The notes below the pieces were generated by a model. That model had not been told where the DNA came from, searched no databases, and saw only the letters and a list, made by a program, of their open reading frames with translations. From NCBI GenBank assembly GCA_023142625.1, contig JAGLJD010000108.1:1-10320 (forward strand): a stretch of 10,320 nt of DNA, given 5' to 3'. A program made the translations under genes and the position numbers. This DNA is from Candidatus Parcubacteria bacterium (GTDB lineage: Bacteria; Patescibacteriota; Patescibacteriia; JAACEG01). This document shows, one piece after another, positions 1 through 10,320 of this stretch (position 1 is its first letter; every line of letters begins with the position of its first letter).

Positions 1-1
1 T

Positions 2-223
2 ATAAACGACGGCGATTTGGTTTTAATTAAAAAACAACCCGATGCTGATCCGGGCGACAAGGTAGTCGTTTTAATCGGAGACGAAGCTACGATTAAAACT
101 TTAAAGAAAGGTGATGATTGTGTTATCTTAGAACCGAAATCAACAAATCCAATGCACAAACCGCTTTATATTTTTGAAAATTTGCAGATTCAGGGTAGAG
201 TGGTTGGAAAAATAAGAAATTAA
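2..223 (+). CDS. lexA: LexA-type repressor/S24 peptidase, C-terminal part (5' end outside window)
   Basis: Only the last 73 codons are present; the frame is open to the left edge, so any start inside the window would be artificial. The visible part begins INDGDLVLIKKQPDADPGD and continues into KVVVLIGDEATIKTLKK, which matches the second half of the S24 (LexA/UmuD) autoprotease domain. The Lys in EATIK (bases 95-97) sits where LexA has its catalytic Lys; the partner Ser lies upstream of the window. The end, GRVVGKIRN, matches the usual LexA C-terminus (GKVVG.IR). LexA represses SOS genes as a dimer and cleaves itself when stimulated by RecA. A phage-type S24 repressor is the main alternative, since the DNA-binding domain cannot be seen. 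Confidence 0.8.
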   Translation: MNDGDLVLIKKQPDADPGDKVVVLIGDEATIKTLKKGDDCVILEPKSTNPMHKPLYIFENLQIQGRVVGKIRN

Positions 224-226
224 TTA

Positions 227-400
227 ATGGAAAATATGTGTAAAAAAAATACATCTCCACAAAATAAGAAAACAAGAGTGGGGGCACATCGAAGAGACTG
301 CTCTGCGGGAAGGACATTACCTCATGCTAAACCTATGGCCGAAAGAAGTGCTTCCATGGGAAAGGTGCCACCAATACCTTTATCTAATAGAAAAAAATAA
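227..400 (+). CDS. Small ORF, possible truncated paralog of the HNH-like gene at 902
   Basis: An intact 57-codon ORF starts three bases after the lexA-like stop. Its middle (…GRTLPHAKPMAER…) aligns with GKVLHHVKPVAEK of the 78-aa protein at 902-1138. Over twelve codons about 25 of 36 bases agree, and several differences are synonymous (Leu TTA/TTG, Lys AAA/AAG, Glu GAA/GAG), which suggests shared coding ancestry. After that the similarity is lost. A +1 shift gives GKGATNTFI, reminiscent of GKTTKKNTRII, and the ORF ends SNRKK against HRNRKK. The first His of the HH pair is Pro here, and the later Asn/His residues are missing. It therefore reads as a decayed or internally deleted copy, but it could be a genuine small protein. 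No Shine-Dalgarno is visible. Confidence 0.35.
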   Translation: MENMCKKNTSPQNKKTRVGAHRRDCSAGRTLPHAKPMAERSASMGKVPPIPLSNRKK

Positions 401-404
401 TTCT

Positions 405-890
405 ATGGCAAAAGATAATTTAGCAAAACAAAACGCAGATATTAATAGAAGAATGATGTTGTGGTCTTGTGATAATGAAAATAACCTTTCATCTAATTAT
501 TCCAATTTTTTAACAACTTTAGCTGGATTTTTTATTGTGCTTTCGCCATTAGTAATAAATGATGAAATAGTAAAAAATGGCGTATGGTTAAAAATATTTT
601 TATCAATATCAATTGTGTCCATTTTTTTATCATTAATTTTTGGAGGTATTTATATATTTTTAAAGAAAAATTTTTTTTCAAAATGGATAAAGAATTATTC
701 AGAAATTTTTAATAAATGGAATAATTGTAGCACTAAGGATGATGAAGATAAAATATTAGCATGTGAGGAGTGTATATATAAAAAAAATAAAACAGAATCC
801 CCTCAATGGCCACTTATTACGCAAACTATTTTATTGTTGTTTGGGATGTTTATAATTATTACTATTATAATAAAAATTTTAATTTTTTAA
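405..890 (+). CDS. Small multi-pass membrane protein, unknown function
   Basis: This encodes 161 aa from the ATG at 405. An in-frame ATG at 324 is possible but overlaps the preceding ORF and adds a segment unlike the rest. The N-terminal ~45 residues are polar (MAKDNLAKQNADINRRMM…). Two hydrophobic segments follow (around FLTTLAGFFIVLSPLVI and IFLSISIVSIFLSLIFGGIY), then a polar region of ~60 residues holding a CEEC motif, and a C-terminal hydrophobic helix (ITQTILLLFGMFIIITIII). It is clearly an inner-membrane protein but I do not recognise the family. The layout of a soluble helix followed by a TM pair loosely resembles SLATT-type 2TM effector proteins; that is only a hint. The DNA is strikingly AT-rich compared with the genes further right. 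Eleven bases separate it from the HNH-like gene, so the two may be co-transcribed. Confidence 0.7.
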   Translation: MAKDNLAKQNADINRRMMLWSCDNENNLSSNYSNFLTTLAGFFIVLSPLVINDEIVKNGVWLKIFLSISIVSIFLSLIFGGIYIFLKKNFFSKWIKNYSEIFNKWNNCSTKDDEDKILACEECIYKKNKTESPQWPLITQTILLLFGMFIIITIIIKILIF

Positions 891-901
891 ATATTAATTT
901 T

Positions 902-1138
902 ATGTCAACAAAAAAAGTTTCTAAGGCTCAAAAACAAAAGGAAAGAAATCCTAAAAAAGTAAAGATGGTTATAAAACAAAAAGGCATCAAGTCTGGTAAG
1001 TTGCCCAAAGGAAAGGTTTTGCATCATGTTAAGCCTGTGGCCGAGAAAGGGAAAACTACCAAAAAGAATACTAGAATTATCACGAAAGCAAAGCATAAAA
1101 GGATTCATAGGAACAGAAAAAAGCAAGGAAAAATATAA
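902..1138 (+). CDS. Small basic HNH-like protein
   Basis: This encodes 78 aa starting MSTKKVSKAQ. The same frame is open further upstream, overlapping the membrane-protein gene, but the ATG at 902 is the first after that gene ends. The first ~35 residues are very Lys-rich. The C-terminal half carries an HH (residues 41-42, LHHVKPVAEKG), then KTTKKNTR (Asn56), then KAKHKRIHRNRKK (His65, His69). This HH…N…H…H spacing follows the core of HNH/colicin-type nuclease folds, in which the first His pair, Asn and later His form the beta-beta-alpha metal site. No zinc-binding Cys pairs are present, and the usual GG turn is replaced by EKGK. Nuclease activity is an inference; a DNA- or RNA-binding role is equally possible. 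A likely truncated relative lies at 227-400, on the far side of the membrane-protein gene. Confidence 0.65.
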   Translation: MSTKKVSKAQKQKERNPKKVKMVIKQKGIKSGKLPKGKVLHHVKPVAEKGKTTKKNTRIITKAKHKRIHRNRKKQGKI

Positions 1139-1155
1139 AGTGCATTATTAAAAAA

Positions 1156-1182
1156 TTAGCACTTGACTATTAGGAGTGCTAA
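1156..1182 (+). promoter_or_regulatory. CIRCE operator (HrcA-binding inverted repeat)
   Basis: The left half TTAGCACTT (1156-1164), a nine-base spacer and the right half GAGTGCTAA (1174-1182) match the CIRCE consensus TTAGCACTC-N9-GAGTGCTAA at 17 of 18 positions with exact spacing. CIRCE is the target of the heat-shock repressor HrcA, best known upstream of groESL and dnaK. Here it overlaps the -35 box and spacer of the promoter at 1163-1191, so bound HrcA should block polymerase. A further partial half-site (AAGTGC, 1138-1143) mirrors the left half. Confidence 0.93.
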
Positions 1183-1191
1183 TTATATAAT
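1163..1191 (+). promoter_or_regulatory. Sigma-70 type promoter embedded in CIRCE
   Basis: The -35 box TTGACT (1163-1168) and the -10 box TATAAT (1186-1191) are 17 bases apart, nearly consensus. Transcription should start near 1197-1199, giving a leader of ~135 nt before the ATG at 1334. Confidence 0.85.
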
Positions 1192-1198
1192 ACATAGG

Positions 1199-1333
1199 AA
1201 AGACGAGGCGTTTCTCATTTTTACATTTTAATAGACTGTTTTAAATAACTAAGTAGCGGGTTACAGCAGACCGTGAATACGGTTAGAGAGAAATAGTCGA
1301 ACTCTCTTCTAATTAATTTAATTAGGAAGATTT
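1199..1333 (+). other. Structured 5' leader of the CIRCE-controlled transcript
   Basis: This is the untranslated leader between the predicted start site and the ATG at 1334. Visible structures are a perfect 5-bp hairpin (ACCGT 1270-1274 / ACGGT 1279-1283, loop GAAT), a 6-bp hairpin (AGAGAG 1285-1290 / CTCTCT 1302-1307) and an AT-rich palindrome centred at 1317 that runs into the AGGAAG ribosome-binding site at 1324-1329. The first 14 bases (1199-1212) are exactly complementary to 1569-1582 in the terminator. I do not recognise it as a known riboswitch class. Confidence 0.55.
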
Positions 1334-1543
1334 ATGGGGTGTAAAAATGACGCACCTGGCATGCGAGGTTGCCGTTCTCGGAATCGAAATGGATTATTGC
1401 GCGATAAGCGTGATGATACCCATGTAGGAACCATTGAGAAACAGTACGGAGTTGATCTTAGAGTTAGGTCCGATATGCATCTTGGGAATTATCTCGAGAG
1501 GCGTAAGATAAAATCCCTTAACGACCTTATTACTGGTCAATAA
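1334..1543 (+). CDS. Small basic protein under CIRCE control, unknown function
   Basis: This encodes 69 aa. The ATG at 1334 is preceded by AGGAAG four bases upstream, which supports the start. The N-terminal part (MGCKNDAPGMRGCRSRNRNG) is rich in Arg, Asn and Gly with two Cys. The rest (KRDDTHVGTIEKQYG, then VRSDMHLGNYLERRKIKSL, ending NDLITGQ) looks like a compact helical domain ending in an SLNDLI motif. The regular protein-like pattern argues that it is translated, although the transcript is unusually structured. I cannot name a family. Its control by a CIRCE-overlapped promoter suggests a heat-shock or proteostasis role; basic charge suggests nucleic-acid or ribosome binding, but both are inference. 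It is the only gene between this promoter and the terminator at 1558, so it is monocistronic. Confidence 0.7.
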   Translation: MGCKNDAPGMRGCRSRNRNGLLRDKRDDTHVGTIEKQYGVDLRVRSDMHLGNYLERRKIKSLNDLITGQ

Positions 1544-1550
1544 GGGATTT
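1511..1550 (+). repeat. Strong nested hairpin over the stop codon of the small gene
   Basis: AAATCCCTTA (1511-1520) and TAAGGGATTT (1541-1550) are perfect 10-base inverted arms. Inside them GACC (1523-1526) pairs with GGTC (1534-1537). The right arm contains the TAA stop codon at 1541-1543. No T-run follows, so it is not itself a typical terminator. It could protect the 3' end of the mRNA or be part of a larger RNA fold. Confidence 0.75.
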
Positions 1551-1557
1551 GAGCATT

Positions 1558-1590
1558 AGATGAGGTATAACGCCTCGTCTTTTTTATTAT
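1558..1590 (+). terminator. Intrinsic terminator of the CIRCE-controlled transcript
   Basis: The arms AGATGAGG (1558-1565) and CCTCGTCT (1573-1580) form an 8-bp stem with one T-G wobble and a seven-base loop, followed by a run of six T. Its 3' arm is also complementary to the transcript's own 5' end. Confidence 0.85.
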
Positions 1591-1914
1591 ACTACAAATA
1601 TAAAAATTATTAAATCGTTTTCGTAGCGGAGCGGAGAAAACACAATATTTCCCCTCTATAAACAAAGAAAAAATCAAATTTATCCCCCTTTTTAGAAAGC
1701 CTATCTTCAGTATTCATCTTAGAAAAATATTTTTTGAATTGCGTATAACTGGTTTTTATATGAATTTTTTGTTTAGATAATATGTTTAATTTGTATGTTA
1801 TGCGGAATTATTAAAAAAATTTTTTTGAAAATATTTATATCTTAAACAAAAAATTCAAGGGTTAGGTTATTCAATTGTTGGTTATACAATATCAAAAACA
1901 GCAAAAAAGTCAAT
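1591..1914. other. AT-rich gene-free stretch
   Basis: I see no convincing ORF on either strand. It holds a short inverted repeat GTTTTC/GAAAAC (1617-1622 / 1636-1641) whose loop contains a tandem GCGGA, and the long-arm inverted repeat at 1761-1857. The remainder is A/T runs. Confidence 0.6.
1761..1857. repeat. Inverted repeat with 15-base perfect arms
   Basis: TGAATTTTTTGTTTA (1761-1775) is the exact reverse complement of 1843-1857. With one-base bulges the pairing extends a few bases further inward. The ~67-base interior is AT-rich and contains a run of seven A followed by seven T. It could be a MITE-like remnant or a cruciform-forming spacer; no flanking target duplication or coding content is evident. 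Confidence 0.6.
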
Positions 1915-1967
1915 AAAAAAAGTTGACGAAATTGTGCGGTCGCACAGTTTTGTCAACTTATTTTTTA
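1914..1967. terminator. Bidirectional intrinsic terminator
   Basis: An 18-bp stem (1920-1937 with 1942-1959, two G-T wobbles) closes on the four-base loop GGTC. It has an A-run on its left and a T-run (1961-1966) on its right, so it can terminate transcripts from either strand. On the minus strand it backs up the ABC-F terminator at 1979-2015. Confidence 0.85.
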
Positions 1968-1978
1968 ACGCAAATTTT

Positions 1979-2015
1979 TATAAAAATGTTCCACAGCCTT
2001 ACAGGACTATGGAAC
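1979..2015 (-). terminator. Terminator downstream of the ABC-F gene
   Basis: On the minus strand GTTCCA…TGGAAC arms (1988-1993 / 2010-2015) continue, through one mismatch and one bulged base, into a CCT/AGG inner stem with a three-base loop. The hairpin is followed by ATTTTTAT. It lies about 78 bases past the ABC-F stop codon. Confidence 0.65.
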
Positions 2016-2092
2016 CAACGAATAAAATGAATTTTTGCAAAACAGTTTCACTATCCGTCACAGTTTAAAAAATTGGTGCTGGGTAGATCTTT

Positions 2093-3544
2093 TTATAATT
2101 TCCCCAAGTCTAAATAATCGTCAAATTGAATTTTTTGGACAAATTCCGGCATATGGCTGATTAAAATTATTGCCCCCTTGTATTCATCAATCGCTTTGGC
2201 AATTATTGGTATATGTCGGAAATTTATATGATTCGTAGGCTCGTCAAGAACTAAAAGTCCAGGCCGCATTAAAACCAATCTGGCAAACGACAGGAGCCCC
2301 TTTTGCCCCTCAGAGAGATATGATACTTTATGTCCAAGCAAGTCTCCAGTTATTAAAAATCCTGCGGCAACCGCGCGCAATTGCTGAGTGTCAATGCCAT
2401 CAGCAGAAATACACTCAAGCGATTCAAAAACAGTCTGCTCGTAATCAAGAGTCGCGAAATCCTGGCTGTAGTATCCAGTCCTAACGCCATCCATAATTCT
2501 TGCTCCTTCTGATTTGCCATTAACTAAAGTTCTAAGCAAAGTGCTTTTTCCGATTCCGTTCGGTCCTGAAATCAGCAAGCGCGTTTTTTTGTTTAGAATT
2601 TTTTCAACAATTTTTACAATCGGCTCATGATTTTGAATAACTTTTAACTGTTTAATCGCAACAATATCTCCAAAAATGTCTTGCGCCGGAATCGTAAAAT
2701 TTTTAATCGTCTTATCCTCTTTCCTGACTTCAATTTTATTATCTTCAAGTTCGGCGGTTTGATCGCTCATTTTTCTTGCCAATTTTCTCATTTTTCCGCC
2801 TTTGTGCGCAAAAAAATTAACTTTTTGCTTGCGGTCTTTAATTAATTTTTCCAATTGCGCGTTTTTTTTGCGTTCTCTTTCAATACGGCTCTCAATTTCC
2901 GCGACAACAGAATAGTAATCCCCGACATAAGTTTCAATTTTTTTTGTAAATATATCAAGATATAAAACTCCTTCGGTAAAGCAATTTAAAAAATCAGCGT
3001 CATGAGAAATAACAATTACGGTTTTTTCATACATTATTAAAAATTCTATCAAATGGTCTATTCCGTCCTTGTCAAGATTGTTTGTCGGCTCATCTAAAAG
3101 TAAAATATCAGGTTTTTGTATTAGGGCGTTAGATAAAAGCAGCCGCGCTTGCTGTCCGCCAGAAAGCTTTCCCGCAACACTGTCTGTCGGCACAGCTAAA
3201 TTAACAGCTTTCATTGCTTTTGAAATCTCACTTTTAAAATTCGGCGGCTGGATTTCAAAAGATGCGGCAAAATATTCTTCAACTGTTTTTTGAAAATCGT
3301 TTCTGTCAATAACTTGCCGAGCAGTTGCGATAGTTATTCCGTTAGAAATTGAAATTTTTCCTTCTTTGGCTTTTTTTTCGCCTTTAATTAAACTGAATAA
3401 AGTGCTTTTTCCAGCCCCGTTTTGACCCATCAATGCAATTTTTGAATTTGTATGCAAGTTAAAATTAGCCTCATTTAAAATTGGCTTTTTATGTAGATAT
3501 TCGAAAACGACATTTTCAAATCTAAGTATTACTTGGTTTGCCAT
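2093..3544 (-). CDS. ABC-F family ATPase (two ATP-binding domains)
   Basis: This encodes 483 aa counted from the ATG at 3544 (MANQVILRF); an in-frame TTG at 3562 would add six residues of a T-rich run and is less likely. There are two ABC domains and no transmembrane segments, as in ABC-F proteins, which act on the ribosome. Domain 1 has Walker A GQNGAGKST (40-48), signature LSGGQ (127-131), Walker B LLLDEPTNNLD (148-158) and the switch His in ISHD (181). A charged, probably coiled linker spans ~205-300. Domain 2 has Walker A GPNGIGKST (327-335), Walker B LVLDEPTNHIN and an ISHM His (464). The second signature is LSEGQ (410-414) and the D-loop is HINF instead of HLD, so site 2 is divergent. 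The short gap between Walker A and signature in domain 1 leaves no room for an EttA-type arm. The protein is short for the family. It may be a translation factor or a ribosome-protection (resistance) factor; sequence alone does not decide. Confidence 0.9.
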   Translation of the reverse strand: MANQVILRFENVVFEYLHKKPILNEANFNLHTNSKIALMGQNGAGKSTLFSLIKGEKKAKEGKISISNGITIATARQVIDRNDFQKTVEEYFAASFEIQPPNFKSEISKAMKAVNLAVPTDSVAGKLSGGQQARLLLSNALIQKPDILLLDEPTNNLDKDGIDHLIEFLIMYEKTVIVISHDADFLNCFTEGVLYLDIFTKKIETYVGDYYSVVAEIESRIERERKKNAQLEKLIKDRKQKVNFFAHKGGKMRKLARKMSDQTAELEDNKIEVRKEDKTIKNFTIPAQDIFGDIVAIKQLKVIQNHEPIVKIVEKILNKKTRLLISGPNGIGKSTLLRTLVNGKSEGARIMDGVRTGYYSQDFATLDYEQTVFESLECISADGIDTQQLRAVAAGFLITGDLLGHKVSYLSEGQKGLLSFARLVLMRPGLLVLDEPTNHINFRHIPIIAKAIDEYKGAIILISHMPEFVQKIQFDDYLDLGKL

Positions 3545-3550
3545 AATTAT

Positions 3551-3579
3551 AAAAAAAAACAACCCATAATTTATGAGCC
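3551..3579 (-). promoter_or_regulatory. Possible attenuator-like hairpin before the ABC-F start
   Basis: On the minus strand an 8-bp stem (3572-3579 with 3561-3568, three G-U wobbles, loop AAT) is followed, after one G, by nine T (3559-3551), ending seven bases before the start codon. It has the form of an intrinsic terminator inside the 5' leader, as in leaders of some antibiotic-responsive ABC-F genes. The stem is weak and no leader peptide is evident. No Shine-Dalgarno can be seen for this gene. Confidence 0.35.
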
Positions 3580-3609
3580 GTTAGAATGCTTTATTAATTA
3601 CTAAATTTT

Positions 3610-3638
3610 ATAATACAGTCAATAATCGCAGAGGTCAA
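3610..3638 (-). promoter_or_regulatory. Promoter of the ABC-F gene
   Basis: On the minus strand the -35 box TTGACC (3638-3633), 17 bases, and the -10 box TATTAT (3615-3610) give a good sigma-70 match. Transcription would start near 3603, leaving a ~59-nt leader that contains the hairpin at 3551-3579. Confidence 0.7.
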
Positions 3639-3647
3639 TAGACCAGC

Positions 3648-3682
3648 AACCCCTCTCCGATTTAAAAAATCGGGGAGGGGTT
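3648..3682. terminator. GC-rich hairpin between the ABC-F and surface-protein genes
   Basis: The arms 3648-3663 and 3667-3682 form a 16-bp stem with one wobble and an AAA loop. On the + strand it is followed by ATATTATTTTATA, a weak T-tract. On the minus strand, which the surface-protein gene would use, no T-run follows. It probably still blocks read-through toward the ABC-F promoter immediately beyond. Confidence 0.6.
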
Positions 3683-3701
3683 ATATTATTTTATAACAGA
3701 A

Positions 3702-3766
3702 TTATCTTGTCGCGCCAGAGTAGGCGATCGCCCGGACAACCCCGTCATCCGACAGGGCAAGTATCC
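3702..3766 (-). pseudogene. Recoded second copy of the surface protein's C-terminus (out of frame)
   Basis: Reading the minus strand toward the stop at 3704-3702 gives ALSDDGVVRAIAYSGATR and a TAA. The last 11 residues are identical to the last 11 of the large surface protein that ends at 3767, yet this copy is in a different frame (stops 65 bases apart). Eleven of the twelve codons, counting the stop, differ, nearly all at the third position (for example Val GTA/GTC, Ile ATA/ATC, final Arg CGT/AGA, stop TAG/TAA). The copy is locally GC-rich. This is the pattern of a diverged coding sequence kept by selection on protein, not of a recent DNA duplication. It is probably the tail of a lost paralog or of the gene's previous 3' end. 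A 7-bp hairpin (3740-3757) lies inside it. Confidence 0.75.
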
Positions 3767-6700
3767 CTAACGAGTTGCTCCTGAGTATGCTATTGCGCGT
3801 ACAATGTCCCATGCTGTTGCTGAAGATGGATTATAGCCGTAAATCGCTTTGAAAATTTTAATTGCGGCTTTTTCGCTGTTTAAGTTTCTATTTGTAGGAC
3901 GCAGTCCGTATGCGATAACCGTCACTGCAGCGTCATCATTTGGATTAGATCTGTTGGCTTTTCTTAAATAGATGTTTTCAAAAGCGGTTTCAGCGTTTGC
4001 CTCCGTTTCCGCGCTTGTTTCGCTTGGCCATCTGCCGTTAGCTATTTTAATCGCGTCGCTCCATTCATCTGCTGTTGACGGAAGTTTTCCAAAAGCCGAT
4101 TTGTAAGAATTTATAACGCCAGCCCGCTCGCCTTCGCCTAATCGCAAAGTAGTCTCTGTTCCGTAAGCGATAAAATTAGTTAAAGAGTATTCTCCTTCTT
4201 TTGTTAAATATTGAGCGTTTTTTATTAAATTTTTTACATATTTTTTAACAACGACTTGCTCTTTGGCTAAATCTCTCTTAAATCTAAATCTATTTAACAA
4301 TCCGTTAATATCGCCTTTCGCGATTTCAGCGGCTTCTGATATCATGCTATCTATTTCTGTTATCAATATTTTTACCGCTTCAACAACCTCTTCCGTCGTC
4401 GTTTCAGCCGTATCTTCAGCGCTTGTATCTTCATCTTCTTGCTGGTTTGTTTCGTTTACATTTTGAAGAATATGAAGAGGCATTCCGCCGCCTCCGCTTG
4501 ATTGTGCCGCGCAAGTATTTCCGCTTTGAGTGTATCCTGAATTACAGGTAATTGAACAGTCAGCCGCAACTGTTCCGTTTGTAACGCTATTATTTGAACA
4601 AATTTGCAGAGCGGTTGAATAATCGGATTCTAAATCATCATCATCCCCGGCAGTCACTTTGTAATAATAACTTGTAAACGCGACCGTTGAGGCATCTGTG
4701 TAGGTTTCTGTTCCTTCTAAAATCGCTGATACGCTAATCTGTGAATATGTTGTTCCGTCTGTTGAGCGATAAACAGCATAGCCGTATAAATCATTGATAG
4801 AAGTAGCGTCTTCATTTGTTGCGACAGCGTCCCAAGAGATACTTACAGCCGTTCCGCTTCCGGCGGTTTGCGCTATATTGCTCGGCGCTGCCGGAGTCAC
4901 TCCGTCAGGAGAAGAGCCCACAGCGAATACGGTCAAGTGATTTGTTGCCGCTTTAAATACCAACTTATAATCAGTATAAGAAGTAAAGCTTGCGTTAACT
5001 AAGGCATCGTCAATAAATTTTTCAAAACCGCTTTGGCTTGCGGTGCCGTTGTAGATTGTCCATTCAGTGCTTTCCGAGGTCGCTTTATAATAAGCAGTTT
5101 TTGTCGTCGACAAGTTCACCCATTCATTAAGGGTGCTGTCCCAATAACCGACTTTCATTGTCTTTAATTTTGAAAAATCTTTAATTCCTGTTTCAGCGTC
5201 TATTTCAGCTTTATAGATCACCATTTCCAAGTCAATATAATCGCTCAAATTAGTAATCGGCTGTCCCGAGTTGTCGGTCGCCGTGATGTTTTTTCCTTTG
5301 CTCGCGAAGGGCTTCATAGAGTTGGTTGTCGAAACAGCAGAAGTTTCTTGTGTGTTCATATTTCCGCTTGAGTTTGAGCTTCCTAAAGCGTTTGGCGGCA
5401 CTGTTATTTTAACGCCTGTGCCTGTTGATTTTCCAGTGCTTGTATTTTGAGCCGTGTCGTCAATCACTCCGCCGGACGCCGGGGTCATCGGCTTTGATTT
5501 GGTTTTTATTGACCAGCCAGCTTCAGTTGTTAATTTAATATGCTTATTTGCAACATTTGAACCAGACACGATAATAAGCGCGGGATTTCCGCTTTCAGAA
5601 TATTGCGTGCCTGAATATCCGTCAGCAGCTCCGTAGACTTTCCATTCACCGTCTGAAATTCCGAGAGTATAAATTCCAGTAGCGTCAACAGGCGCGTGGG
5701 CTTTAATATTGCTGTTCATCTTTTCCGCGTAGACCCAGCCGTTCTGAATCTCTTCGCCTGAATCATAAGAATTATTACTAATAGTGTCAGCGTAAATTTT
5801 TCCTGAAATTGTTTGGCTATAAGCGGTTAAAGTAAAATTAATAGTTGTGCTTGCTGTTCCGTTGTTACTTACAGGTTCGCTTGACATATAGCCCGGCTTA
5901 TCGGCTCCGATCATATAATTGCCTGACGATAATTTTGGAATAACCATAGAATAAGCGCCTGAACTTGCGTCCGCGGAAGTTCCTGTATGAAATCCTAAGT
6001 CAGGGTTTCCGATCCAAACCCATGCGTCTCTCTGCCCTTCGTCAGGACCGCTCACTGCTCCTGAAATAGTTATCACGCTTGAACCTGTAAGATCAGGAAG
6101 CGCGAATAGAATATTGTCGTCCGTTCCGTCAATTACTATGCAACCTTTATCTGTATTAAATGCGTCGCTCGATGATGATGGAATAAAATGTCCTGTGCCG
6201 GGAACATCAACAAAGAAAAAATAATTTCCAGCCTCTAAGCTCACGGTTTGATTTCCGGCGGAAATATCGTCAACTCTTATTGATCTGTGAAAACCGGTCG
6301 GCATGCAGTCATTTCCGCTGCAACTTACGCCGTCAATATGTATAAACGCTTCTTTGTTTGAATAAGTGGAACTGTTTGCAAAAGAGATAGTGGCGGTTTC
6401 TAAATCTCCAGTTTCAATCGTTATATTAGCCCCTGTTTTATTAGCGTTTGATACGGTTATGTTGGCAGGACTATTTTCCACGCCATCGCTTGAAAGTTCA
6501 ACCTCTCCATAATTCGGTGTCCAAATGTCAACGCGATAATATTTGTCAACAGCAGATCCTGTGCCTGGGACCGAAATAGAATATACTCCGTTCGCGTCTG
6601 TTGATCCGCCGTATTCTTTGCCAAGATAATAGCCATTTGCATCAAATTCAACCGCCCTGATAGGCAAATATGCCTGCGCTGAGCCGTCAATAGTAATTGT

Positions 6701-9700
6701 TCCGCCGATTGTGTACCAAGTCAAATTTGACGATGGGCTTAAATTTATGCCTCCTTGCGAAGATCCGTTGATGGTTATATTTGATCCGTATTCCATCCAG
6801 CCGACTCCGTGAGCGTCAGCTTCAACCGTCCAAGTCCCATTGTCAATATATAGAATATAATTTCCAGAAGCGTCAGCCATTGTGTGCGAGTGCCCGAAAC
6901 CGCCTACTTGATGCGTCCATACCGCGGCATAAGGAATAGCTTGATCGCTGGCATTTCTGATCTGTCCAGATATAGTATAGGCGGGCTTTTGCATTTTAAT
7001 AGTTAAGCCGCTTACTCCGCCGCTCGGCACATCTTGCGTTATCTCTTGCGCGTCAGGAAGACCCGGCTTAAACGCGCCGATTTTATAAGTTCCAAGAACG
7101 GGAATTTTTAAGGTAAATGTTCCATCAACCGCTGTCTTGCTGTGAGCTCCGCCAAATCCGCCCATTGGCTGGTAAGCAAAAACTTCAGCCGAAGCAATTC
7201 CTTCGCTGTTTTCATCAACAACTGTTCCAGTAATTGTTGTTGAAACTTGCGATCCTAAATTAATTGTTAAAATTCCTCCTGCCACAGAAGAAGTAGAAGC
7301 GTCAATAATTTTTACAGAAGTTGGCATTGGTGGCATCCAATCTGGCATTAGAGGCGGACCCGACATTACTCCTGTTGGCATAGCCGGACCCACTCCAACC
7401 ATCCATTCGCCGACAGGAAGATATAAATGATAATCTGTTCCAGACGGAGTGTTTCCAGGAGTGGCTGTTTTTACGCGGAAACCGCTTGGGGAGCCGGCAA
7501 AAATATCAACATTATCGTCAGTCAAAGGATCTCCGCTTCTAAAATCGCCAATTAACTTTACTGTTAGGTCAAAAACTGTTCCAGCAGTTTCAGCAGTCAA
7601 AGTTAAGTTTTTTGTAGTATCGCCGCCAGAAAGCCAGATCGGCTCTGGCATTGGATTGCCAAAATAAGTTGTCCCGCCCATTGTTATTGTTGGATCCGTG
7701 AATAAAAAATATTCGCCGTCTGGCAGATTTGCGAATGAATAACTTGAAGTTGCGTTAGCGAAAGCCGCGCTTGTGGTTTGCATCGGACCTGTCATAGGCG
7801 AGCCAAGATACACAACCATTGTGCTCCCATTAGCATCTCCTGTGGCTGTAATTGTTCCAGAAATTGTATTTGTTCCGCCTCCGCTTATAAAGAACGGCAT
7901 TGAATTCATTGTTTCAAGCAGTATTCCGCTTGAATTTTTTGTCTTAATTTCTACTTGATAGCCGTCTGTCTCAAACCCTTTCGGCGTGCTTGAGTTTTGA
8001 ATTCCGTCCAAATCAATATGCAGAAAATTATCTGCCGCGACAGCCGCGCTTAATTTAATCACAATAACTCTGTCGCCGATTACTCCGATTCCGTCGCCAG
8101 CCGCTCCGCCGTTTTCAGTATTAGCGGGATTGTCGCTTGTAAAAGTTATAGTGCCGTCGTTCCATTCATTAAAATCGTCGTTGCTCGGGCTTTGCGCGTC
8201 TTGAATTACAGAAGTGACATCAAAGCCGCTTGGGAATTTCAGTTCAATTGTTCCGTCCGAATCTATCGCTGCTGTAGTAGGAATATCAATAAAATATTTT
8301 GTTGTAACTCCGATCATACTGCTCATCGGCCAGACTCCGATCGGCTTCATTCCCATATCGCCCATATTAAAATCTTCAAAGTCCATTCCTCCGCCGAACA
8401 TTCCGCTGTCGCCGAAGAACATGCTTGAATCCATCACATAGCCTGTTTTTATATTTGCCGCAGGATCGCCGCTGTCATCTAAAGCGTTGCCAGCCAAATC
8501 AGTGATGCTTGTTGACGCTGTTAACTGGAATTCGTGTCCCGGAGTCAGAGTAAGACCGTCCATCATAACTTCATTGCGTTCATGTTCATAGCGGATATTC
8601 GCGCTGGTTAAGCTCACGGCTGTCGCGCTGCCCCATGCGGTTGCGTCGCTAACCCTTGTTTTTAAAGTATAATTAGATTTGTTTTCAACTTTTGTTTGGT
8701 TCATCGGTTCGCTGAATTCAACAAACAGCCCGTAATTGTCAGCGTCCGCAAAATAGATTTCAGGACTTGTTTCATCGGTCGTTGCCGTGGTTGTGAATGC
8801 TTGGGTAACGGCTGAAATTGCCTGCCCGCTAATGCTTGTTATGCTTGTTGAAGCCGTGAAAGTATATTCTGTGCTTGTGGCAAAAACAGCATCTGAAATA
8901 AAACTTATCATATTCGCCTGCGAGTTATATTCAACGGTTCCGCTTATTCCGTTTGCTGGAGTTGTGGTTGAAACAGCAACGCTTGAAGTTGAAACAGTTG
9001 TCGGATCAAGCGGATTGTCAAAAGTTGCCGTAATAACAAAGCCTGTAGGGACGCCCGTAATATTTTCTCCGCTAAGATATTGGTTTAAGTTTGTTCCGAT
9101 AAAAGTAGAAGTTATCGCGGCGCTTGAATCGCCTGTCCAGAAATCATAATAAAAAGGTCCTGGATTATTATTATTATTAACATCAGGCATTCCAGCTAAT
9201 AGTTGTCCTGTATTATCTTTAACATCCCTTGTGACATAAACCCTATATTGCGAACTTGGGTCCAAAGAAAAAGTTTGAATTGACGCGACATTGCTTGTTC
9301 CAGTATTTGGAGTTACAGTCGTGCCTGCTACTGTTCCAGTACTGACTTTTACTAAATAAATATTAGCAGGAATAAAAGTCGTCGCGTCCATATTATCGCG
9401 GTCAAAATTAATTGTGATAGAAGTCAAGCTTGTCGGCACCTGCTGCATTCCATAACTTGGATAGCCAGCATCCGCCATTGGCAGAAAAAATCCGCCGGAG
9501 CCGCTCCCGTCGTCGGTTCTAGCGGTAAAATAATAAGTGTCAGTCGTGGTTGATAAATCAGTCATCTCTGACGGCAAAGACGCCGTAACTGTATCTCCGC
9601 CAAAATTAGTTCTATTAACAGAAACAGTATACTCAGTGTTAGCGGCAAGATTATTTGTTGCCATAAATGAGACGCGATGCATTGTCTGATCGCCCCAATA

Positions 9701-9982
9701 CTCTGGCATATATTCCCAAGTCCCGTCTATGCTTGGTGATACTAAAAAATAACTGCTCAAACTATTAAGCACAGTAGAATTAGGGGCTGAACTGAACATA
9801 AAATCCAGCGGAGCCATTGTCGGCATATTTGTCATGCCATTTGGCGGACCGTATCCGACGATTGTAATTTCCGCTGCGCGCGCGGTTGGCGTGTATAAGT
9901 CTAATGGGACAGTATAACTTGCCAATAAAAAAACCACTGACAAAATAGCGGCTTTTTTGAAAAAGTGTTTGAATCTCTTCAT
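3767..9982 (-). CDS. Giant secreted modular surface protein (2071 aa)
   Basis: The ATG at 9982 follows AAAGGAGGGG at good spacing. A Sec signal peptide (KR…FKK, hydrophobic 11-25, likely cut after TARA, residue ~36) marks export. About four Ig-like domains of Big_5/SbsA type fill ~38-512 (PPNGMTNMPT…, FSEPMN…, …TSITDLAGN). A Met-rich linker (517-556) and a beta-domain (~558-700) follow. About eight carboxypeptidase-regulatory/SpaA-like beta repeats begin near 702, 801, 912, 1001, 1089, 1196, 1301 and 1390 (for example TISGTI, TITGTVVDENSEG, TISGQI). A ZU5-like region (~1490-1690, ITVPPNALG), an FN3 domain (~1693-1790) and a four-Cys module (C1795, 1809, 1813, 1824) come next, then an acidic linker and C-terminal helical repeats (~1930-2071). 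I see no sortase LPXTG motif or C-terminal membrane anchor. It is probably an adhesive or structural cell-surface protein; the ligand is unknown. It appears monocistronic and ends in TAG. Confidence 0.9.
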   Translation of the reverse strand: MKRFKHFFKKAAILSVVFLLASYTVPLDLYTPTARAAEITIVGYGPPNGMTNMPTMAPLDFMFSSAPNSTVLNSLSSYFLVSPSIDGTWEYMPEYWGDQTMHRVSFMATNNLAANTEYTVSVNRTNFGGDTVTASLPSEMTDLSTTTDTYYFTARTDDGSGSGGFFLPMADAGYPSYGMQQVPTSLTSITINFDRDNMDATTFIPANIYLVKVSTGTVAGTTVTPNTGTSNVASIQTFSLDPSSQYRVYVTRDVKDNTGQLLAGMPDVNNNNNPGPFYYDFWTGDSSAAITSTFIGTNLNQYLSGENITGVPTGFVITATFDNPLDPTTVSTSSVAVSTTTPANGISGTVEYNSQANMISFISDAVFATSTEYTFTASTSITSISGQAISAVTQAFTTTATTDETSPEIYFADADNYGLFVEFSEPMNQTKVENKSNYTLKTRVSDATAWGSATAVSLTSANIRYEHERNEVMMDGLTLTPGHEFQLTASTSITDLAGNALDDSGDPAANIKTGYVMDSSMFFGDSGMFGGGMDFEDFNMGDMGMKPIGVWPMSSMIGVTTKYFIDIPTTAAIDSDGTIELKFPSGFDVTSVIQDAQSPSNDDFNEWNDGTITFTSDNPANTENGGAAGDGIGVIGDRVIVIKLSAAVAADNFLHIDLDGIQNSSTPKGFETDGYQVEIKTKNSSGILLETMNSMPFFISGGGTNTISGTITATGDANGSTMVVYLGSPMTGPMQTTSAAFANATSSYSFANLPDGEYFLFTDPTITMGGTTYFGNPMPEPIWLSGGDTTKNLTLTAETAGTVFDLTVKLIGDFRSGDPLTDDNVDIFAGSPSGFRVKTATPGNTPSGTDYHLYLPVGEWMVGVGPAMPTGVMSGPPLMPDWMPPMPTSVKIIDASTSSVAGGILTINLGSQVSTTITGTVVDENSEGIASAEVFAYQPMGGFGGAHSKTAVDGTFTLKIPVLGTYKIGAFKPGLPDAQEITQDVPSGGVSGLTIKMQKPAYTISGQIRNASDQAIPYAAVWTHQVGGFGHSHTMADASGNYILYIDNGTWTVEADAHGVGWMEYGSNITINGSSQGGINLSPSSNLTWYTIGGTITIDGSAQAYLPIRAVEFDANGYYLGKEYGGSTDANGVYSISVPGTGSAVDKYYRVDIWTPNYGEVELSSDGVENSPANITVSNANKTGANITIETGDLETATISFANSSTYSNKEAFIHIDGVSCSGNDCMPTGFHRSIRVDDISAGNQTVSLEAGNYFFFVDVPGTGHFIPSSSSDAFNTDKGCIVIDGTDDNILFALPDLTGSSVITISGAVSGPDEGQRDAWVWIGNPDLGFHTGTSADASSGAYSMVIPKLSSGNYMIGADKPGYMSSEPVSNNGTASTTINFTLTAYSQTISGKIYADTISNNSYDSGEEIQNGWVYAEKMNSNIKAHAPVDATGIYTLGISDGEWKVYGAADGYSGTQYSESGNPALIIVSGSNVANKHIKLTTEAGWSIKTKSKPMTPASGGVIDDTAQNTSTGKSTGTGVKITVPPNALGSSNSSGNMNTQETSAVSTTNSMKPFASKGKNITATDNSGQPITNLSDYIDLEMVIYKAEIDAETGIKDFSKLKTMKVGYWDSTLNEWVNLSTTKTAYYKATSESTEWTIYNGTASQSGFEKFIDDALVNASFTSYTDYKLVFKAATNHLTVFAVGSSPDGVTPAAPSNIAQTAGSGTAVSISWDAVATNEDATSINDLYGYAVYRSTDGTTYSQISVSAILEGTETYTDASTVAFTSYYYKVTAGDDDDLESDYSTALQICSNNSVTNGTVAADCSITCNSGYTQSGNTCAAQSSGGGGMPLHILQNVNETNQQEDEDTSAEDTAETTTEEVVEAVKILITEIDSMISEAAEIAKGDINGLLNRFRFKRDLAKEQVVVKKYVKNLIKNAQYLTKEGEYSLTNFIAYGTETTLRLGEGERAGVINSYKSAFGKLPSTADEWSDAIKIANGRWPSETSAETEANAETAFENIYLRKANRSNPNDDAAVTVIAYGLRPTNRNLNSEKAAIKIFKAIYGYNPSSATAWDIVRAIAYSGATR
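9164..9178. repeat. (ATT)5 trinucleotide run, five Asn in the surface protein
   Basis: Five ATT units on the + strand read as five AAT codons on the minus strand, giving PDVNNNNNPGPF in a linker between Ig-like domains. Slippage would change length without breaking the frame. Confidence 0.85.
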
Positions 9983-9989
9983 ACAATTT

Positions 9990-9999
9990 CCCCTCCTTT
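9990..9999 (-). promoter_or_regulatory. Strong Shine-Dalgarno for the surface-protein gene
   Basis: The minus strand reads AAAGGAGGGG, with AGGAGG at 9997-9992, nine bases before the ATG at 9982. It fixes the start codon and contrasts with the weak or absent ribosome-binding sites of most other genes here, suggesting high translation. Confidence 0.9.
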
Positions 10000-10016
10000 A
10001 TAAATTTAAAAAAATC

Positions 10017-10052
10017 ACAGCCGTAATATTTTTTAAATTCATACGAAGCTGT
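10017..10052 (-). other. Hairpin in the 5' leader of the surface-protein mRNA
   Basis: ACAGC plus CGTA (10017-10025) pair with TACG (10042-10045) and GCTGT (10048-10052), leaving a two-base bulge and a 16-base AT-rich loop. It sits ~20 bases before the ribosome-binding site and may stabilise the mRNA. Confidence 0.45.
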
Positions 10053-10080
10053 TTATTAAATGTAATTTTATATTATTTTT

Positions 10081-10089
10081 ATTATAACA
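10081..10089 (-). promoter_or_regulatory. Extended -10 promoter candidate for the surface-protein gene
   Basis: The minus strand reads TGTTATAAT, a perfect -10 box with an extended TGN. No good -35 is found at 16-18 bases. The start site would be near 10075, giving a ~93-nt leader. Confidence 0.5.
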
Positions 10090-10146
10090 CATTTAAAATA
10101 AAAAGACTATACAAATATTAAAATATGTGTTAAGTTTTTATTAAAA

Positions 10147-10228
10147 GGGCGAGTGGCGGAATTGGTAGACGCGCTTGGCTTAGGACCAAGTATCGCAAGA
10201 TGTGGAGGTTCAAGTCCTCTCTCGCCCA
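10147..10228 (+). tRNA. tRNA-Leu (anticodon UAG)
   Basis: The acceptor stem GGGCGAG (10147-10153) pairs with CTCGCCC (10221-10227), followed by the discriminator A. The anticodon stem CTTGG/CCAAG (10174-10178 / 10186-10190) holds the loop CTTAGGA with anticodon TAG at 10181-10183, which reads CUA/CUN Leu codons. A long class II variable arm (ATC-GCAA-GAT) and a T arm with TTCAAGT are present. The CCA end is not encoded, so it must be added after transcription. Confidence 0.97.
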
Positions 10229-10320
10229 CTTAAAAAATGAAAAATTAAAATTTAAAAAGGAAAAACGACAATTAAAAAATAAAATTTTATTTATAACTTT
10301 CGACTTTATAGACTTTCAAC
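10229..10320. other. AT-rich tail after the tRNA, no gene seen
   Basis: This short stretch contains a 14-base perfect palindrome (AATAAAATTTTATT, 10278-10291) and a repeated GACTTT near the window edge. No ORF or clear terminator is visible. Confidence 0.5.

Follow-up and report, generated by a model that had tools for sequence, protein, structure and literature searches.

A second, out-of-frame copy of a conserved surface-protein gene end in a Candidatus Parcubacteria genome, read as a probable relic

A gene for a surface-type protein of Candidatus Parcubacteria bacterium (assembly GCA_023142625.1) is followed by a second stretch of DNA that encodes the same 11 C-terminal residues and a stop codon. 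This second tail is probably (at a rough probability of 0.6) a relic made up of the final codons of a diverged paralog, left downstream by an illegitimate rearrangement with a palindromic repeat at the junction. The window, that is, the whole stretch of DNA analysed, comprised 10,320 nt (contig JAGLJD010000108.1, positions 1 to 10,320). The gene (3767..9982, minus strand, from the ORF list) encodes 2071 aa; the Pfam scan of the whole protein revealed Big_5 and CarboxypepD_reg domains, and the protein is presumably located at the surface. It ends in tail 1 (T1), VRAIAYSGATR-TAG (3767-3802, minus strand; GTA CGC GCA ATA GCA TAC TCA GGA GCA ACT CGT TAG, read from 3802). Tail 2 (T2), VRAIAYSGATR-TAA, lies on the same strand at 3702-3737 (GTC CGG GCG ATC GCC TAC TCT GGC GCG ACA AGA TAA, read from 3737) and was evident both in the translated sequence and in a profile scan. 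It is offset from T1 by 65 nt, hence in another frame, with 29 nt between the T1 stop and T2. The two tails differ in 11 of 12 codons, TAC being the only codon in common, and are identical at 24 of 36 nt. The initial annotation had described this double encoding, and the sequence confirmed it. A 20-nt hairpin, GCCCTGTC-GGAT-GACGGGGT (3739..3758, minus strand), separates the tails and folds as a single 8-bp stem with two G-U pairs; a terminator-like hairpin, identified from sequence and fold, stands downstream of T2 (3648..3682, minus strand). The repeat search of 3560-4100 returned no direct or inverted repeats at the settings used, both tails and the imperfect hairpin being below what the tool can detect. 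The only Rfam match in the window was a tRNA, and of the three window proteins submitted to NCBIfam (E 0.01), families were listed for the ABC-F protein alone.

T1 closes an unnamed conserved C-terminal domain of about 124 aa (3770..4141, minus strand), for which the Pfam scan of the whole protein gave no match. The domain is shared with two paralogs of the same genome (contigs C94 and C154; 193 contigs, 75% complete) and with many Patescibacteria. A 77-aa domain query matched 26 of 95 genomes, the window's own included (E 1e-6), and 36 domain loci were found in genomes titled Falkowbacteria, Parcubacteria, Jacksonbacteria, Kuenenbacteria, Uhrbacteria, or unnamed Patescibacteria or bacteria. 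The tail DNA pattern was present in 53 of 380 genomes of the class, again including its own, and control matches numbered zero. Across 16 aligned domains, W111, A116, I117, Y119-A122, and R124 were invariant, and the end falls exactly three residues past YSG or YTG in 99 of 104 distinct tails, a set that takes in T1, T2, and both tails of the second case described below (L053). The C-terminus thus proved to be as strongly constrained as had been proposed, and the paralogs do carry the peptide. The family ends in VRAIAYSGA(T/K)R; the gene of T1 belongs to it in full, and T2 by its last 11 residues and stop only. The tails illustrate how conserved the C-terminus of this surface protein is and, judged from sequence, make it a candidate anchoring or export signal. 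The phage records contained no relative of the domain, and the tail pattern occurred in one viral contig only, from a GC-rich phage, a match that inspection by eye put down to chance. Among side observations on family tails, the unlike tails of two paralogs of one genome (L044 and L064) are followed after their stops (about 3375) by some 50 nt that are largely common and contain a palindrome right after the stop. A GGGAT start directly after the stop is common to L001, L031, L044, and L064 (by eye).

Comparison with the sister species (G001) indicated which tail is extra. The same locus there, with the same downstream ABC-F gene, has one tail and lacks T2. The two proteins share 83% identity over the 587 aa comparable; in an ungapped DNA comparison, identity was 80-88% in 60-nt windows lying between about 394 and 34 nt from the end, and lower (45-75%) in windows further upstream. 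Over its 36 nt, the sister tail differs from T1 at 9 positions and from T2 at 12. Because the gene is orthologous to that of G001 and a single tail is found there, T1 looks vertically inherited and T2 looks extra. On this sequence comparison that assignment is the more likely one, and for the last 36 nt alone it is unproven. It argues against the earlier proposal that T1 was a newcomer placed before an old tail. A 14-nt run common to T1 and the sister tail was set aside as weak ground; such runs occur in 6% of other tail pairs, and gene orthology is therefore the better ground.

The divergence between T1 and T2 is high but still normal for unrelated tails of the family. Among 435 pairs formed by 30 other VRAIAYSGATR-stop tails, a mean of 8.3 codons differ, at least 11 differ in 6% of pairs, and at least 12 nt differ in 20%. 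Independent draws from the codon usage of the gene differ on average at 7.2 of 11 codons, with at least 10 in 6% of draws. The remark that almost every codon had changed is accordingly true of the pair and not extraordinary for the family. Both tails fit the codon usage of the gene poorly and about equally (T1 -16.7, the 5.5th percentile of random draws; T2 -16.9, the 4.5th); their third-position GC values are 0.18 and 0.73, respectively, compared with 0.37 for the gene. A diverged homolog as the source of T2, suggested in the initial annotation, fits these data, and so does protein-level selection on T2 until recently; a GC-rich, foreign donor is needless given the equal codon fit. Recent tandem duplication of T1 would need high DNA identity and was rejected on the 12 differences in 36 nt. 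The DNA of T2 was found in its own genome (75% complete) only as itself. Paralogs share its peptide, but no donor with its DNA was found; the nearest tails are 5 of 36 nt off and lie in other genomes.

The frequency of second tails was estimated by scanning, with a tail profile, the first 250 nt after each of 102 tail positions, the second tails themselves among them. An intact second tail followed two of the 102, namely in the window (about 50 bits) and at locus L053 (about 58 bits), whereas 714 control scans of reversed, reverse-complemented, and shuffled sequence reached at best 20.6; the view that chance cannot give the 11-residue match is thereby upheld. A 1000-nt scan with other scoring on about the same set picked the identical two (51.4 and 53.6, compared with 4.9 for the best control). 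The best decayed candidate, VVSAIA at L031 (G004:C26), scored 13.3, inside the control range, and was left uncounted. L053 belongs to another Falkowbacteria MAG. Its second copy, DIVRAIAYSGAKR-stop, lies 78 nt downstream, in frame 0 relative to the first and behind two stops, and both of its tails are the lysine variant GAKR. A palindrome stands between them (by eye), so that a hairpin separates the copies in both cases. Inspected by eye, the sequence following the second L053 tail is similar to that following the single tails of L052, L054, L055, and L063, and the nearest other tails have 4-5 mismatches to the second L053 tail and 5-6 to the first. The L053 codons weakly suggest that the second tail is the older one there, so the direction may differ between L053 and the window.

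Recombination between paralogs, or deletion, can leave 3′-end gene fragments. T2 is like such fragments in that an intact gene is accompanied by the short but perfect terminus of a family member, and it is unlike them in the palindromic repeat between the copies and in the like arrangement in a second species. In the relic reading, a diverged paralog of the surface-protein family would have supplied T2 through deletion or recombination, the palindrome would have helped the joining, and T2 would now be no more than untranslated 3′ DNA that separates the stop codon from the terminator. The perfect state of its peptide would then reflect a recent past as a live gene end and not current translation. 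The multi-copy nature of the family, its occasional tandem genes (tails 2.1 kb apart in L042, about 1.2 kb in G091:C6, and 3.7 kb in G095:C12), the second tail of L053, a divergence within the family range, and the single-tail sister locus all favor this reading. So do a solo tail in G004:C4 and the match of the window hairpin to hairpins in the T-loops of tRNA copies, described below. Against it stand the failure to find the donor DNA, the rarity of tandem genes among the loci seen (none at the window locus), and the L053 codons. Two perfect second tails with no significantly decayed one are also a little unexpected for neutral leftovers. If correct, the relic reading would make the locus a clean natural example of how the gene end of a diverged homolog can be left next to an intact gene, the copies being separated by a palindrome here and in a second species. 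The solo tail of G004:C4 (L107, 651-749) spans 33 residues with no gene attached, within a 39-aa open frame, and the gene downstream of it looks by eye like a metal ABC permease.

Apart from itself, the window hairpin matched only C177 and C151 in its own genome (18/20 to the hairpin there; 18/19 aligned nt, E 0.035 each). The pattern GCC-N5-ATCC-N5-GGC had six matches in this genome and one in the reversed control. The six are without exception perfect hairpins, arranged as three adjoining pairs, each located in a T-arm with GGTTC on one side and GA on the other. These 40-nt twin hairpins (C57:4608-4647, C151:199-238, and C177:682-721; loci L147, L149, and L151) have stems that vary yet pair perfectly and loops that complement each other (ATCC/GGAT), and lie in the T-loops of tRNA genes or of copies of tRNA 3′ ends. 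On C151 and C57, the split T-arm is part of an additional 3′ end that closely follows an intact tRNA; on C177, it lies in a tRNA-Ser (read by eye) that ARAGORN did not recognise. A longer pattern occurred at eight places in 5 of the 380 class genomes; viral contigs lacked the twin-hairpin pattern. Seven places are hairpin pairs, all in tRNA or tRNA-like arms and one (G001:C126) with a mismatched base pair: three in T-arms of the own genome (G000), two in T-arms of G001, one in a T-arm of G178, and one in an apparent anticodon arm of G044 (by eye). The eighth, in G287, looks like a chance match. The window itself holds one hairpin only, and not the two adjoining 20-nt hairpins with ATCC/GGAT loops.

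Rickettsia palindromic elements are short dispersed palindromes in or beside genes. The repeat described here resembles them in being short, dispersed, and in or beside genes, and resembles likewise the REP-type palindromes (PMC3733652). It differs from both types in consisting of adjoining 20-nt hairpins (GCC-N5-ATCC-N5-GGC, then GCC-N5-GGAT-N5-GGC) and in that seven of the eight matched places form such hairpins, all seven in tRNA or tRNA-like arms. The window gene end and the tRNA ends elsewhere share an arrangement in which an intact end is followed by another end that a hairpin either splits or precedes. With one 18/20 match behind it, this link between tails and tRNA copies is suggestive and unproven.

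The hairpin data bear on a rival explanation that is possible though unlikely, namely that T2 is a hairpin-marked dead copy made by a site-specific mobile system acting near the W-D-I-V codons and keeping the gene end intact. In the own genome and in G001, intact tRNA-Ser and tRNA-Gln are followed by a second 3′ end in which a twin hairpin interrupts the T-loop, the window hairpin matches one member of such a twin, and T2 can be read, by eye, as GGATA-[hairpin]-TTGTCC, split inside W-D-I-V. In the tRNA cases a gene for a small GIY-YIG protein is sometimes at hand: the hairpin-split copies of G178 and G044 directly adjoin such genes, and the G001:C87 copy is near one. The other four of the seven hairpin-pair places have no GIY-YIG gene, the sole matches of the own genome and G001 being on C125 and C87. 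Counted raw and with no control set, an intact tRNA lay within about 110 nt at 13 of 29 further GIY-YIG loci, which were the best-scoring ones and no random sample. When these loci were taken together with the first set of GIY-YIG loci, an extra tRNA fragment within 1 kb accompanied 12 of 21 tRNAs beside GIY-YIG genes, compared with 2 of 18 other tRNAs at the loci. Most of the fragments match the intact copy at 100% identity; T1 and T2, by contrast, have 12 differences in 36 nt. The broken tRNA copies bear hairpins in D-, anticodon-, and T-loops (by eye), for example in two tandem units of G004:C52 and in a copy beside tRNA-Glu on G000:C125.

Several points count against such a system at the window. 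Neither an endonuclease gene nor a recombinase gene was evident in the window, and a GIY-YIG gene beside the duplicated target, as in the tRNA association, is lacking. The one GIY-YIG match of the own genome (C125) is at none of its three twin-hairpin places and is not on the window contig, and no family tail was found in loci L147-L181, the part of L147-L210 that was scanned. A fuller version is doubtful, and somewhat more so: Patescibacteria would possess a hairpin-carrying mobile system, complete where a small GIY-YIG nuclease gene adjoins a tRNA; this system would duplicate the ends of its targets, one intact and one hairpin-split copy would be its product, and the tail pair would be its first protein-coding target. 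A mobile-system origin of T2, if true, would be more interesting than a relic.

Irrespective of the tails, to which a link is unproven, the small GIY-YIG genes with hairpin-bearing tRNA fragments are possibly an undescribed tRNA-targeting mobile element, and the association in Patescibacteria may merit its own study. The loci concerned are L153/L179 and L174 (G178:C6), L154/L170 (G001:C87), L173 (G004:C52), L168 (G000:C125), and L157/L169 (G044:C2). The open-licence literature yielded nothing on an association of a small GIY-YIG gene, an intact tRNA, and a hairpin-split tRNA fragment in Patescibacteria. T4 SegB and its relatives are free-standing GIY-YIG homing endonucleases (PMC2988022; PMC13096335). 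SegB, a free-standing GIY-YIG gene within a tRNA region, is the nearest known case; the present genes differ in occurring in Patescibacteria beside hairpin-carrying tRNA fragments. GIY-YIG genes are also reported in rRNA insertions of CPR bacteria, in a text whose available part mentions no tRNA gene, palindrome, or hairpin (PMC11270868), and one is named among transferred genes in another (PMC12455944).

The remaining explanations are improbable. Duplication of an attachment site by a tyrosine-recombinase element that subsequently lost its interior would agree with two gene ends in direct order and a terminator-like hairpin behind the second. However, no integrase was seen, and the tails, identical at 24 of 36 nt, share no long identical core; only 29 nt, without a listed ORF of their own, separate the copies; and neither the phage records nor the viral contig mentioned above provide a carrier. 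An assembly or binning artefact at the junction is still less probable: the assembly is fragmented and incomplete, but the T2 DNA is nowhere else in it and L053 is an independent case in another assembly. Least credible is a functional backup end used after readthrough or after the frameshift proposed in the initial annotation. In its favor, the T2 peptide is perfect, and translation that slipped into the T2 frame somewhere in about the last 20 codons would reach T2 without encountering a stop. However, L053 has its T2 in frame 0 behind two stops, the sister locus has none, intact second tails within 250 nt are as rare as stated, and no alternative frame conserved in relatives was found, slip sites being judged by eye.

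Two further observations concern the opposite part of the window. The 69-aa ORF at 1334-1543 had no NCBIfam match at E 0.01; it is flanked by an inverted repeat, GACGAGGCGTT/AACGCCTCGTC (about 1202-1212 and 1569-1579, by eye). Two short ORFs on the plus strand (227-400 and 902-1138) contain motifs that are alike by eye (LPHAKPMAE... and VLHHVKPVAE...) and are perhaps small paralogs.
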